Assembly (NCBI GenBank): GCA_020091685.1
Contig: CM034595.1
Coordinates: 42,215,351 to 42,279,350 of the forward strand
Origin: Lutjanus erythropterus
Taxonomy: Eukaryota; Chordata; Actinopteri; Lutjaniformes; Lutjanidae
DNA: 64,000 nucleotides
Reading direction: 5' to 3'
The number at the start of each line of letters is the position of its first letter. The first letter of the stretch is position 1. Positions 15,185 to 62,700 of this stretch are shown here, piece by piece. Made by a program: the position numbers and the translations under genes. Below the pieces are notes generated by a model, which searched no databases, was not told the DNA's origin, and saw nothing but the letters and a program-made list of their open reading frames with translations.

Positions 15185-15500
15185 ATCATCCACAGTGGAG
15201 ATTTTGGGGATTTCCATGCTACCAGCTGAGTCACAACACACTCTACAAAATTAGACACGTCGGTTTTACTCCTGGCATGAATTTAAATCAAATCAAGACG
15301 CACTGTGAGCACTGGAACTAACACAGTAACACAGATAAGATGTTACACCGTGCAAAGAGACAGTGTGATACGGCCGACACAGACTAAACAAACACACACT
15401 GAAGGCTCTCTTGGATGTAAACTGAAAGATTTTGGCTCGAGCTTCGGTCTCTGCTGCTGTCTGCAGTTCTAACATGCTGCCTTCGCTCTCCCTCCTGCAG
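15185..15500 (+). other. Last part of the upstream intron
   Basis: Intronic sequence leading to the acceptor at 15498-15500. No first exon with the expected phase (ending in one leftover G) was found here. Confidence 0.5.
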
Positions 15501-15643
15501 GTAACACATGTCAGAATGGTCTCATGCCCGCCCTGGTGCGTCCCACCCTGCCTGCCGTCCAGAGCTCGCTGGGCATGAAGCAGTTCCTCCCGTTTCCATT
15601 GGATACAGCCTCAGCGGTCCGCCTCTTCCCGGGATTCAACACG
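15501..15643 (+). CDS. znf385d: Internal coding exon of a ZNF385-family zinc-finger gene (znf385d-like)
   Basis: The exon follows a strong acceptor (pyrimidine-rich stretch ending CTCCCTCCTGCAG) and ends at ACG before the donor GTGAGTG. Read with two leading bases of a split codon, it gives 47 open codons. The peptide begins NTCQNG, contains PALVRP and KQFLPFPLDTASAV, and ends LFPGFNT. From memory of the family, human ZNF385D has GGTCQ, PALVRP, KPFLPFPLDTAAAV and LFPNFNA at the same place. The GTCQ start separates D from the A and B paralogues as I recall them. This segment is the proline-rich linker before the first zinc finger; it has no finger itself. ZNF385 proteins are nuclear factors with JAZ-type C2H2 fingers that bind RNA or DNA. 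The exon is phase 1 at its start and phase 0 at its end, so a short first exon ending in a lone G is expected upstream; I did not find one. Arg in place of a small or Asn residue before LFP is a difference from the mammalian proteins. Family call is firm; the paralogue is less certain. Confidence 0.85.
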
Positions 15644-16970
15644 GTGAGTGTCATGTGACCTGCTCACAGGCTTTAAGATGACCCTGGTGAAGGTCACTCT
15701 GATGGATAGCGGCGTTTTAAGTAGGAGAACTTTGAATTTCCAAGGTGCTTTTCCATCTGTCGAGGATTTCCTATCTCTTCTGCTAATCTCCATATATCTA
15801 CAAAATATTCATATTTGGAGACGTCTTTATTTCAAGCTGTTATCACAGACTCAGATCCACATACAGTAAGCAGCTATTAGCCTTGAGGCAGTGAGGTCTG
15901 ACCTTCCTCAACCTCATCTGGTCAAGTTCTCTTTTATGCAATGCTCTCTCGTTGTTACCCATGAAACACCTCATTAAAATGATGCTTTTAAAGCCTTTAT
16001 GCAAGAAGGACGACGTTTAATGATGTCCACAGTCCACTTACAGTAAGAGGAGTATTTCTCTGTGGGAGAAATGTACGTTTTATTATGCAAACATTTATGC
16101 AATGACTGCAAGATAGAAGCCGTGCAAATTGATTTTAGACCATTGCGGTGATTTGTGTGATTTCTCTTTTAGTAATGCAAAAATGTAGAGATGCATTCAC
16201 TGAAAACTTGTGACTTTTACGACGGAGCGCTTACTATCCTGATCGTTTCTATATTTGACTTTGTCCAGCTGATTTTCATGACAGTTTTGTCTTTAGGCTG
16301 TAAGACCAGGACTCATGAAGGGAGAGCTGGTCATTTCTCTTTGAGGAATTCGGCTGCTGAGCACATCTCATCCCCTTGTTAACGTTCACATCTGTTTTTA
16401 TTTTTACACTCCAACACAGGAACATAGTTTATCATAGAAAATGCTGAAAACCAGTTGGCATCCTTGTTGTCTCGCTGTAGAGCACAACAGCTTTTAATCT
16501 TTGGTGAGGAGTTCTTCTCAAACTTGCAAATCGTGCTCCATGTTGCACCAAATGGCAGGTTGGAATATTACAGTGTCAATGTATGTCACCTCCTCCTAAG
16601 TGCAATATGGTGTGCACCATCTGGAGGAAGCAACAGCTCAACCGCAGAAATGTTGCAAAGCAGTGCAAATAATTTGATGTTGCTTTATTTCACCGGTCTG
16701 TTGCATCTAAAATAATTTACTAATAATTTTCTAGATTCTACCTGGAGAGAAAAGCAGTGCTCAGCTGTTACACTTTTATTAATTAATTCTGTTTGAAAGT
16801 TTGTGTGACCTAAAGATTCAGCACACAGCAGGTCACTTAGTAGCAGTTAATTTGTGTAGGAAACAGTGGAGCTGAAAAAATCTGCACAGTTTGGTATCAG
16901 GATATTTTGCCTGCCAATATTATATAGAAATATGGATGTCAAGCATCAATCTTTTATTATAGAAATGATT
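15644..16970. other. Start of the large intron, nothing recognised
   Basis: Ordinary AT-rich intronic sequence. Short frames only. No repeat family was recognised. Confidence 0.4.
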
Positions 16971-32171: not shown

Positions 32172-33210
32172 TTTGGTTACACTTTATTTGAAGGGATACT
32201 GTCATAACCATGTCATGCCATCACATGTGGCTGGTTTTGACATGAGACCATCTTAAGTGTGTCATTAACATTTCCCTTGACCTCAAGTTAAGTGCTACAT
32301 TTTGGACTTGTCGTCGAAAGGTCATTAAGTTTTATTACACTGACAAATGCTTTTGTAACTGAGTCATGCATGAATAATTTCCTGGACTTTAACTAAAGTG
32401 GTACCATTTGAACTTGTCGTAAAGATGTCATTAAATGTTGTAAGGCCAGTGTGACAACAGAGTACAGTACCAAGGTGATTTAACTGATGGACAGACAGCG
32501 GTTAGCTTGTTTACTTGTAGCTAAAGTAGGCTAGCTGCTGTCTGCTGTTACCTGTAGCTGGCATTAGCTATTTAGCTTGGTTAGCTGTGGTGCTAGCCAC
32601 CTAATTACTTGACTCAGCATTTCAATTTGTCATAAAGATGTCATTAAATGTTATAAGGCTAATGTGATGACAGAGTACAGTACCAAGGTGATTTAGCTGA
32701 TGGATGGACAGCGGTTAGTTTGTTTACTTGTTGCTAAAGTAGGCTAACTGCTGTTGTACCTGGCATTGTACTAGCTACCTGACTCAGCATTTGGACTTGT
32801 CATAAGATGTCATTAGGTGTTTTAAGGCTAGTTTGATGACAGAGGACAGTATCAAGGTGATTTATCTTACAGAGTTACCCAAATTAGCTAGTTTACTTTT
32901 TGCTAAATTAGGCTAACTGCTGTCTGCTGTTACCTGGAGCTGGAATTAGCTAGTTAGCTCAGTTAGCTATAGAGCTAGCTGCTTAATTAGCTGACTCAGG
33001 CCTGGGGTTTCAGGAGCCAAACCCAGAAAGAAAACCATCTTGGTACTGTATTCCCTGTCATCAAAGAATGTACACTGTGCATTAAAATTGACACAAGTGG
33101 CCGAATGACACTTAATGACAGCAGTCATAAACATTCATAAAAACTCCCTCATGTTCATGACAGGCATCATGTCTTATGAACGCCCTTTCAACAAAATAAA
33201 ACTGAGGCAC
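32172..33210. mobile_element. About 1-kb terminal-inverted-repeat element carrying a minisatellite
   Basis: The left end (GGTTACACTTTATTTGAAGG) is roughly inverted at the right end (GAACGCCCTTTCAACAAAATAAAA). Subterminal text includes CTGTCATAACCATGTCATG on the left and TCATGACAGGCATCATG on the right. The middle is a tandem repeat listed separately. The end sequences resemble a common fish MITE. No coding capacity. Confidence 0.6.
32405..33000. repeat. Three-unit tandem repeat, units about 170-213 bp
   Basis: The word GATGTCATTA recurs at 32424, 32637 and 32806, giving periods of 213 and 169 bases. Each unit also carries ACAGAGxACAGTA, CAAGGTGATTTA, TTTACTT(G/T)T and GCTAAA(G/T)TAGGCTA, in the same order. 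Unit 2 is shortened. Many GCTAGC/TTAGCT words give short local palindromes. Confidence 0.85.
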
Positions 33211-54653: not shown

Positions 54654-54761
54654 ATGGACCCGGTTCAGAAAGCCGTCCTCCATCACACCCTCGGCCTCCC
54701 CCCCACTGCAAAGAGGAAGCACGTCTCCTGCAGCGTTTGCCAGCTGAGGTTCAACTCACAG
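54654..54761 (+). CDS. znf385d: Second visible znf385d-like exon, start of zinc finger 1
   Basis: The exon lies between an acceptor (GTCCTCCAG) and a donor (GTGAGCG), is 108 bases long and phase 0 at both ends, and so joins in frame to the exon ending at 15643. It encodes 36 residues starting MDPVQKAV, a signature of the ZNF385 family, and ending CSVCQLRFNSQ. The two cysteines of VSCSVC are the zinc-binding pair of the first JAZ-type C2H2 finger. In mammalian relatives the finger continues SQAxAHYKG and then a second His, so the His pair must come from the next exon, which lies outside the window. The central part (LHHTLGLPPTAKRKH) differs from the usual NHTFGV form, so this copy is diverged and could be a teleost-specific duplicate. 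The ATG at the very start of the exon could also serve as the start codon of a shorter isoform, as the family has MDPVQ-starting isoforms by my recollection. Paralogue assignment to D rests mainly on the preceding exon. Confidence 0.85.
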
Positions 54762-55084
54762 GTGAGCGAGTTTTCCTTTGAAGACGAGGGAAAGTTCAAA
54801 AGTCGCGAGTGCTCCTGCCAGGGATACACACCAGACAAACAGAGGAAATAAACTTCGAACAATCACTCTGTTAGGACTGGATATATTTTATTTCACAGCA
54901 ACAGTAAAAAACAATAAGAAAGTAAGAAAGAATATCTGCTTGTTGGTCCACCGCTTTGGTTTGGTCTAAAATATCAAAAAACTCTGCATGGTATGTTGTA
55001 CAAATTATTTGTGGCTCACAGAGGGTGAATCCTCCCAACTGTGGTGGTTCCTTGACCTTAACTCTATTGTGACAGTTTTGATTT

Positions 55085-58870: not shown

Positions 58871-60379
58871 TGGTGTAGAGGCCATGAGTTCCCCCAACCC
58901 TTCAGTGGTGGTCGTTTTTACTAATTTATCATTATATGTCCTTGAGTAGCTAGAAAAATGTTCTATATGTTTTTTTGGTTACTATAGCCTCGCTAACGCT
59001 GGATTGTTTAGGCCAATAATAATATTTAGTTTAAAAAACATTGGATAATAATTTGATAACTTTCTGACATAAACCCACTGCACATAGAAACATTTGAACA
59101 ATTATTATCAGCTTGCAAATACATTGATACCAATATATCTGCAGTAAGTTCCCACAGTCAAACATTCCTACAATTCCTGAGTGTCTGAAATGTTCCTGGT
59201 TTCAGTGGCTACACTGCACTGTGGTCATAACGATGTGTCAAATGAACAATTACTCTATTTACAGAACAAAAACCATGTAATGTCAATGGGACACATCAGC
59301 GGTCAGCCCACAGAAACACATTCAGAGTGAAATAATGTGCCGTCAGCTTTACGACGGTAAAACAACAGAGGGGACTGAGTGAAGCACTCTGGGTGTTTTG
59401 TCCTGAGTTGCTTAAGTGTTTCAGGTCTGAAAAGGTCCTGTTAATAATTGGATGAAATATTTACTCAAGTACTGTCTTTAAGTACAGACTTGAGGCACTT
59501 GTACTTTACTTGGGTATTTCCATTTTATACAAAAATCCTCTTGGATTAGGTGGAATCACACAAAGCCAAACACAGAGCTGTTTTCTGAGCTCATGAGAAG
59601 TTGACTTTTGGTTCTCACAGGACAGTGATGCTATAAATGTTTAATGATCTCAAAGAATAGATTTTTCTTTTCATTGTAATCCACCGTATAATGTTTTCCA
59701 AGAGGCCAGGAACCATTTTAGGAACTCAACCAATTACTGAATTTGATCAGAGGAACCAGAGTTCAGCTCTTGGAAAGGAGCCAGGGGAGGAGGTTTCCAA
59801 AGCTATTCCATCATCTGACAAGGAGCACTGACGAGGCATATTGGAAGCTTAAGCAAACACCGGGTGCCACTAATATCAATAATTGAACTAGGGTAGACAT
59901 TTCTTTAATGATCTTTGACATAAAAAAAAAAACGTTTTGCTGAGAAAAACTAAACCAGAATGTGCATGGATGGAACAGGGGTAAAAAGAGCTGCAGTAGT
60001 TACTGATGGAGGCAAGACGCAGTCATTGCATTGGCCTGAAAATGGCAAAAAGTAGCGTGTCCACTCAGGTGTCATGTTTAGATCTCTGCTGATTGGAGCT
60101 GGAGCTGATAAATACCCATGACCACTGCTGAGTCACTTGACCCAGGAATGAATACTGATTACAGCCTTTCTCAAATAAGACAAAAGCCAGATGTTAATGG
60201 TTTTTTTGTCCAACTTAAAAAGGGGCTTTAGTTTCTGTTTCATCTCTTCACTGTAAAAAAGAAAACAGCTGACAAAACTCAATTTCAAAGCAACTAAATG
60301 TTTGAGAACAACTTTTTTTAACCCCCTCAGGTCAGTTTTCATTGTGCTCTGCTTTCACTAAGGTGATCCCTCATCCACT

Positions 60380-60505
60380 GAACACGCCCTCAAAATAGCA
60401 AAAGGTTTAAAAGTTCCCACCTACTCTTCCAGCAGCCTCTTTATATTCAAGCAGTAGCAGCCAGAGGAAAAGACATTCTCATTTGGCTTCTGTCTTGACA
60501 GAACA
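60380..60505 (+). promoter_or_regulatory. 5' flank of the tetraspanin gene with TATA-like word and possible 3' splice site
   Basis: A TTTATATTC word lies near 60440, about 65 bases before the ATG. The bases just before the start read TTCTGTCTTGACAG and then AACAATG, which would also work as a 3' splice site joining a distant untranslated exon. Both readings are possible and neither is proven. No CpG-rich promoter is visible. Confidence 0.25.
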
Positions 60506-61201
60506 ATGACGGCCACCATGGTCATCAAATACCTGTTTTCTGCCTTCAACTTTTTGTTTTTTGTGGGTGGAGGAGTTGTTCTTGATATAGCCATACGCAT
60601 CAGGAACAGCAAAGCAGACCACCAGATGACTGATGAACTCCTCACCGGTGTAAACCTGCTGATAATTATCAGTGGCGTTACCATGATTTTTGGCTTCCTG
60701 GGCTTCTTTGGAGCGATGCGAGATACCCGCTGCCTCCTGGTCCTGTTCTTCCTGGGCCTGCTCGCCATGTTCCTCATGTTGTTGGCCGTGGGAGCGTTGG
60801 GAGCCGTGTCGAGATCTGAAGCTGCCCGGGAGGCGGTGAAGGAACACGTGAAGTGGCTGCTTCCTCTGAGCGAACGGCCGAAAGAGGTCCAGGAGTCGTT
60901 TCAGAAGGTGGAGAGGGCGGCGTTCTGCTGCGGGTTCTTTGTTGGACATCTTGACTGGGGCAATTCAACAGTGGTGCCCGACTCCTGTAACTGCACAGAC
61001 ACGTCCAGAAACTGCACGGATCTGGACGGACGTGAGATTTACTCAACACCGTGTATGACGTCTATTATGACTTATATGAATAGACTATCAGACTCGCTCA
61101 TGTGGACGGCGTTTGGATTTGGCACCTTGATGATTCTGGGCTTGACCTTCTCTTTAGTCATGCTCTGTCCATGTAGGAGGAGTAAGAACAGCATCATTTA
61201 A
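60506..61201 (+). CDS. Intronless tetraspanin, TSPAN8-like, nested in a znf385d-like intron
   Basis: A single uninterrupted frame of 231 codons with the complete tetraspanin plan. TM1 is about residues 9-32 with the conserved FNFLFF and its polar Asn15, a short first loop follows, TM2 about 46-70, TM3 about 77-101, the large extracellular loop about 102-197, and TM4 about 198-221. The large loop has CCG at 141-143 and further cysteines at 161, 163, 170 and 183, the six-cysteine class. DWGN after the CCG and a PDSC-type motif resemble TSPAN8. Three N-glycosylation sequons are at Asn153, Asn162 and Asn169. Cysteines at 76, 221 and 223 are candidate palmitoylation sites. Tetraspanins organise membrane microdomains and bind integrins and other partners at the cell surface. 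The start ATG (ACAATGACGG) gives the expected short cytoplasmic N-terminus; the second ATG at codon 5 is also possible. There are no frameshifts or stops, and codon use is GC-richer than the flanks. Lack of introns suggests a retrocopy of a multi-exon tspan gene. A pyrimidine stretch ending TTGACAG seven bases before the ATG... could be an acceptor for an untranslated 5' exon. Confidence 0.9.
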   Translation: MTATMVIKYLFSAFNFLFFVGGGVVLDIAIRIRNSKADHQMTDELLTGVNLLIIISGVTMIFGFLGFFGAMRDTRCLLVLFFLGLLAMFLMLLAVGALGAVSRSEAAREAVKEHVKWLLPLSERPKEVQESFQKVERAAFCCGFFVGHLDWGNSTVVPDSCNCTDTSRNCTDLDGREIYSTPCMTSIMTYMNRLSDSLMWTAFGFGTLMILGLTFSLVMLCPCRRSKNSII

Positions 61202-61590
61202 GAAGGAGATGGAAGGCCTGATATTCACAGCTGTTGACTGATGGACAGACCATGTTATTTGTATCTTGTCTGAGCTTTGTCTCAGTAAATTTTAACAAAA
61301 TCTGGAAAAAGTCAAAATAATTAATAGAAATGTGTGTAGCTTTCTTACCCCACAAAATCATCCTATGCCCCACTTAGATTTATGTTATGACTCTTCAGAG
61401 GGGCCTGATGACAAAGGTTGGGAACAACTTGACTAAACTTCTATGACCACCTATAACAGGAAAATGCTGCTTACACAATGATTATGTTTACATGCACAGT
61501 CAGTTTCCACAATTGTCAATATGGTAATATTTGACATTTCATATGGGTCAAACAAAGAGCATTTTCCATTTGGATATTACTAATTAGGAC
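61202..61590 (+). other. Region just downstream of the tetraspanin stop, candidate 3' UTR
   Basis: AT-rich sequence without an exact AATAAA until the LINE tail near 62092. No long A-tract or flanking direct repeat marks a recent retrotransposition, so if the gene is a retrocopy it is not young. Nothing else was recognised. Confidence 0.4.
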
Positions 61591-62115
61591 TTATTCTGAT
61601 GGAGGTTTTAACAATTAAGACGTGTGTGATCCTGCGTATTCAGGTTTTAGGCACATCTATGGACACGTATATACAGTGTGTCCATAATATGCCCCACAGT
61701 TCTTTCTTTTGCAGTGCATGGTGTCTTGTCTGTTTACAGTCAGCTCCAAGTGGTTACTTTTCAATGTATCCCGGGTTTTCACTGATTTGGGGAAAACTTC
61801 ATTTTCCTACTCTGCACCGTGGGCTTGGAATAATCTGCAGACGGATCTTAGATCGGAAACACTCATATCCATTGATAAATTTAAAGGCATCATAAAGAAT
61901 GTGGTGATGGAGACGCGCTTGTTTTTCTTGAGAGGCCCACTATGTTTTAACGGTTGTTCTTGTTGTTTCATTGTGGATTTTTTGTTTAATTTGTTGTATT
62001 TGTGACATTTCAATAAGTTGTGATTAGCTGATACCTTGGCCAAGTCTCTCTTGTAAAAGAGATTCTGAATCTCAGTGGGACTTCTTGGTTAAATAAAGGT
62101 GAAATTAATTAAAAA
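61590..62115 (+). mobile_element. 3' end of a CR1/L2/Rex-like LINE, plus strand
   Basis: The stretch around 61800-61900 encodes a peptide with SYSAPWAWNNLQ and a following DKFKGIIKN. This is the APxxWNxLP-type C-terminal motif after the reverse transcriptase of CR1/L2/Rex-group non-LTR elements. It is followed by a tail containing CAAGTCTCTCTTGTAAAAG and CTCAGTGGGACTT, then GGTTAAATAAAGG, which I recognise as the terminal sequence of a common teleost LINE. The copy is 5'-truncated and its frame is broken upstream. The AATAAA at 62092-62097 could polyadenylate the tetraspanin transcript. Which LINE family this is cannot be settled by eye. Confidence 0.7.
62092..62097 (+). terminator. AATAAA poly(A) signal in the LINE tail
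   Basis: This is an exact AATAAA on the same strand as the tetraspanin gene, about 890 bases past its stop codon. It belongs to the LINE 3' end. Use by the tetraspanin is inferred only from position. Confidence 0.35.
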
Positions 62116-62379: not shown

Positions 62380-62700
62380 TATGTACTGAGCGTTAGAGGG
62401 TGAGACAGGAGTGGATTTTCACTCCTGTCCCGTCCCTCTCTCACAGAAATACTCCGGTCCAATCCCAATCCCATGACAGAGTAAGAAAAACTTCCTGTCC
62501 CATCCCCATCCTGGAAGAATGATTCCCATGCCATCCTGTTCCCATCAATCCACAGTCCGCATGTGATATTACGCACATTTTTAACCATAAAAAATTGTCC
62601 CACTACTGCCTGCTCCCATTGACTTTTTTTCCTGTCCCGTGATTGATGGTGTAATTGACTCCGATCCCATGGGCATCCCACAGGAATCCTGAAAACATGT
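62380..62700. repeat. TCCCxTCCC-type degenerate repeat
   Basis: CTCCTGTCCCGTCCC, CCTGTCCCATCCCC, CCATGCCATCCTGTTCCC and TTTCCTGTCCCGTG, among others, recur through the stretch, as in a teleost repeat built of CCCATCCC words. It is too decayed for a period. Confidence 0.5.

Follow-up and report, generated by a model that had tools for sequence, protein, structure and literature searches.

How does a tetraspanin gene whose coding frame lacks introns come to lie intact in what is very likely an intron of a zinc-finger gene, and is it expressed as part of that gene or in its own right? The question is raised by a stretch of 64,000 nucleotides from the snapper Lutjanus erythropterus (hereafter the window), which corresponds to C5:42215351-42279350 in the animal's own genome.

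The tetraspanin frame and its host gene

The frame that raises the question, copy 1, runs uninterrupted on the forward strand from an ATG at 60506 to a stop codon ending at 61201 and encodes 231 amino acids, which is longer than expected by chance given that the longest ATG frame in 30 length-matched first-order Markov windows measured 171 amino acids. Its product aligns over residues 7-221 to nearly the entire Pfam tetraspanin profile (PF00335, positions 1-224 of 225, E 4.1e-36) and has four membrane-like segments by hydropathy (10-28, 51-69, 77-95 and 203-221), while the large loop carries the CCG motif, six cysteines (141, 142, 161, 163, 170 and 183) and three sequons (153, 162 and 169). 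With the whole profile, four segments, the CCG and paired loop cysteines, copy 1 is a member of the tetraspanin superfamily, and an intact frame with just these segments, cysteines and sequons, as given in a preliminary description of the locus, is confirmed by the reading frame, Pfam and hydropathy. Among solved protein chains, six hits were obtained, of which CD9 (E 2.2e-18) and CD81 are closest in sequence and none is TSPAN8; NCBIfam matched neither this frame nor the second copy described below. An AlphaFold2 model built on a two-sequence input shows long helices and a large loop mostly below a pLDDT of 50, and with a mean pLDDT of 54.8 its quality was too poor for it to be used as structural evidence. 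On the reverse strand, an open frame of 156 amino acids at 60479-60949 overlaps the tetraspanin and is probably a by-product of codon composition.

The host was searched for by tblastn with a human ZNF385D query of approximate sequence. Two forward-strand matches stand out, one at 15500-15646 (63% identity, E 7.7e-15) and one starting at 54654 (E 4.2e-10) whose alignment overruns the exon, while the remaining hits in the window have E values of 0.056 or worse. The matches define an upstream znf385d-like exon at 15501-15643 and a second one at 54654-54761, each preceded by AG and followed by GT on the forward strand. The second exon ends in the middle of a zinc finger, with the CxxC inside and the His pair absent, so that an intron must start at 54762 and the host gene must continue. 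Copy 1 is located 5.7 kb beyond this donor on the same strand as the host. No subsequent host exon came to light within the window, where scanning all open segments with 30 or more amino acids for zinc-finger-like patterns gave four hits, all on the reverse strand. It is thus very likely that copy 1 is nested in a znf385d-like intron whose donor is seen after 54761 and whose 3' edge probably lies beyond the window; of the nested, intronless gene previously described, the absence of a coding intron, the sense orientation and the position past a host donor all hold, though the acceptor is not seen in the window. Our literature search returned no paper that joins znf385d with a tetraspanin. Neither PMC8207432 nor PMC3136929 contains the terms tetraspanin or tspan in its main text, and the available portion of PMC3192792 mentions ZNF385D only as the human host of an L1 element.

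Several repeats lie around these genes. A tandem repeat with a 169-bp unit in 1.9 copies is located between the two host exons (32606-32923), and a short dispersed repeat with at least three other genomic matches (L003, L004 and L005) lies just past the tetraspanin at 61340-61436. Farther on, a stretch at 61780-62110 with a TTAAATAAAGG-like tail at its end presumably resembles the 3' terminus of a fish LINE, and a TCCTGTCCCGTCCC-like 14-mer occurs in four imperfect copies at 62423-62643. Rfam gave no match in the window at the gathering level or at E values up to 1 and, at E up to 10, eight chance-level hits of which none lies past 52018; none was obtained at E up to 0.01 for L001 and L002, and no tRNA was found in the window.

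A second copy downstream and probable selection

When 60300-61500 was searched against the animal's own genome (937.6 Mb in 444 contigs), at least five matches were found including the query itself, a lower bound since the search scored the best candidates and skipped very common words. One match on the same strand (C5:42282277-42283136, 81% identical DNA), outside the window, contains another intact and intronless tetraspanin frame, copy 2, of 230 amino acids (L002:1667-2359). The start codons of the two copies are 6,587 bp apart, and their proteins are 67% identical. Copy 2 matches the Pfam tetraspanin profile with an E value of 2.9e-41, has no counterpart of the third sequon (169) and shows its fourth hydropathy region as two overlapping peaks. 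The locus therefore holds a tandem pair of intact intronless tetraspanins, a finding beyond the preliminary description, whose picture of a single nested copy gives way to one with an intact same-strand near-twin ca. 6.6 kb downstream. Because both frames are intronless, the introns were most simply gone before the duplication.

The two frames differ at 127 of 690 aligned bases, for which the NG86 method gives a dN of 0.175, a dS of 0.347 and a ratio of 0.504 (dN 0.179 and dS 0.326 by YN00). We compared this ratio with 300 neutral simulations that started from copy 1, introduced as many differences as separate the two frames with transitions in their observed proportion, omitted indels and had the original codon restored at stops before the ratio was computed. 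Their mean ratio was 0.85; three of them reached a ratio as low as the observed one, and eight remained without a stop codon. Conservation is uneven along the protein, with 28 of 30 residues kept in the cysteine loop at 151-180 and 13 of the first 30 identical. This one-pair comparison supports purifying selection of moderate strength that acts on one of the copies or on both. Estimating dN/dS had been proposed in the preliminary description, and the value of ca. 0.50 obtained between the copies, seldom matched under neutrality, agrees with its view of a retrogene kept by selection as far as maintenance is concerned, as do two intact copies and the few stop-free simulations; the retrogene origin itself is plausible.

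That copy 1 is a non-functional retro- or duplicate pseudogene left open by chance seems very improbable to us. A ratio of 0.50 is not very low and the N-terminal 30 residues have indeed diverged, as such a pseudogene might show, but both copies are intact at a dS of ca. 0.35, a state to which few of the neutral simulations came close in either stop codons or ratio. We also considered gene conversion between the copies and found it unsupported: at most nine four-fold sites in succession are identical, a length that was matched or exceeded in 79% of 10,000 shuffles, so that identical four-fold sites are not clustered and conversion is unneeded. The longest identical nucleotide run of 41 (p 0.022 in 5,000 shuffles) is confounded by protein constraint.

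A shared upstream block and candidate promoter

Similarity between the copies extends upstream of the frame over a block of ca. 200 bp (60304-60505, forward strand) with 155 of 186 ungapped columns identical (83%), which we propose to be the copies' own promoter and 5' leader. Four-fold sites differ at 19 of 73 positions within the frame, and the upstream block is kept at least as well. Farther upstream, 82 of 196 columns (60100-60303) and 74 of 161 columns (59900-60100) are identical in alignments that may be forced, and the same caveat applies downstream, where 28 of 39 columns agree right after the stop codon and 31 of 77, 89 of 219 and 107 of 229 beyond 61261; the far flanks are 40-47% identical. 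A blastn comparison of the far flanks found no match between the copies other than two forward-strand stretches. The first, 59849-59923, is similar to L002:179-256 (79%, E 2.6e-10) and lies 657 nucleotides from the ATG in copy 1 versus 1488 in copy 2, making it a candidate for a shared regulatory element, a trace of the duplicated unit or perhaps a dispersed repeat. The second, 61224-61293, shows a weak similarity to copy 2 (68%, E 0.014) and might mark the end of the shared unit. In addition, L002:2482-2565 matches 59451-59532 out of order (67%, E 0.005).

Within the block, copy 1 has no ATG, and its TATA-like TATATT at -64 overlaps in the alignment with TATTTAA at -70 in copy 2, while a second TATA-like motif of copy 1, TTTAAAA at -100, is not retained as such in copy 2. 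Judged by these sequence features, each copy is probably transcribed from its own promoter in the shared block. Expression through either the host promoter or an own one had been envisaged before, and between these the shared block favours the latter, in a role that its position and motifs suggest. The tetraspanin might instead lack a promoter and enter the host transcript as an alternative exon by splicing at an acceptor-like tract that ends near 60330; TTTTTTTAACCCCCTCAG does lie upstream of the copy 1 frame and the orientation is sense, but copy 2 reads CCCCCTCAAG at the aligned position, TATA-like motifs occur near -65 in both copies, and independent promoters account better for tandem copies with an upstream block each, so that we regard such a host exon as improbable. 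That the copies share sequence upstream of the likely transcript start suggests an origin of the pair by duplication as DNA over a second retroposition.

Origin of the pair and comparison with known systems

We provisionally call copy 1 TSPAN8-type by its loop cysteine pattern (TSPAN8 is also named CO-029). The pattern of TSPAN8 is given as CCG-[DN][WY]-[P]xxCxC-C-GC in the available part of Table 1 of PMC2965184, and the loop of copy 1, with CCG, DW, PDSCNC, C and PC in this order, fits it except for the last motif, which is PC and not GC. Copy 1 and the TSPAN8 group thus share four hydrophobic segments, the CCG and a six-cysteine loop of the form CCG-DW-PxxCxC-C-C, but the final loop cysteine follows G in the TSPAN8 group and P in copy 1, and the position past a znf385d donor further sets copy 1 apart. 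They also differ in gene structure: passages of PMC2650405 report intron 1b in all of the Tsp8 group beside ancient introns, whereas the coding frame of neither copy has any. Despite this intronless frame, copy 1 may still function as a TSPAN8-type protein. More numerous genomic copies of a tspan8 have been reported for Nile tilapia males (PMC4176596, available portion). Searches of two contig collections not meant for fish, one viral and one of genomes, gave 17 and 49 pattern matches, respectively, with no relative among them by tblastn.

Given the multi-intron structure published for other tetraspanins in the accessible sections of PMC2650405, a retroposed origin is plausible. By our own inference, the six-cysteine loop would place Tsp8 in the six-intron group and hence give it about seven introns, and for a simultaneous loss of all introns retroposition is the simplest explanation. 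On the opposing side, a poly(A) tract is not obvious by eye at 61202-61340, and stepwise intron loss or descent from an ancient intronless lineage may be alternative origins. The latter could make copy 1 the local member of an already known old intronless tetraspanin lineage and not a fish novelty, and indeed Huang et al. 2010 (PMC2965184; note 4 in the legend of Figure 4, as far as this text is available) state that bony vertebrates all share a divergent tetraspanin of retrotransposition origin, though the wording there leaves the gene unnamed. TSPAN10 (oculospanin) would be a candidate, as it resembles copy 1 in being a tetraspanin without ancient introns. On its introns, the available passages of PMC2650405 conflict, one calling TSPAN10 intronless and another giving a Tsp10 intron 4e, and "none" in the former could mean no ancient introns. 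However, TSPAN10 belongs to the eight-cysteine group (PMC2965184, Table 1, available part), whereas the loop of copy 1 has six cysteines near the TSPAN8 order, and we consider membership in such an old lineage unlikely.

The explanation that we favour, with reasonable though far from full confidence, is that a retrocopy in the znf385d-like intron gained or kept a promoter and was then duplicated, resulting in genes with promoters of their own. A multi-intron TSPAN8-type mRNA would have been reverse-transcribed and inserted in sense orientation into the long znf385d-like intron, where the retrocopy would have gained or kept a short promoter. The unit of promoter and frame would then have been duplicated, most simply as DNA, into two intact intronless genes ca. 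6.6 kb apart. Each copy would be transcribed from its own TATA-type promoter while the host transcript splices over both tetraspanins, and the products, judged by their family, would be glycosylated four-pass membrane scaffolds that organise surface partner proteins. More tentatively, and with the odds somewhat against it, the fish znf385d intron might house a small intronless TSPAN8-type cluster that arose by one retroposition, grew by DNA duplication with a compact portable promoter and came under selection of its own as a supplier of new tetraspanins for the cell surface.

Annotation of the host gene could fuse or overlook the two protein-coding genes to which the locus points. Since few lineage-specific intron changes are reported for tetraspanin genes in the available part of PMC2650405, an intact, duplicated pair of intronless genes whose upstream block is conserved would offer a clean case for promoter gain by a retrocopy followed by multiplication. 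A parallel is S180r of the green swordtail, a retrogene for a long-wave opsin that lies within an intron of gephyrin (PMC3087554, available portion), which is likewise a retrocopy in an intron of an unrelated teleost gene and illustrates that nested retrocopies do persist in teleosts. According to the same source, S180r has retained one intron and does not share the orientation of its host, whereas the tetraspanins lie in sense orientation, have no coding introns and are present as two copies.
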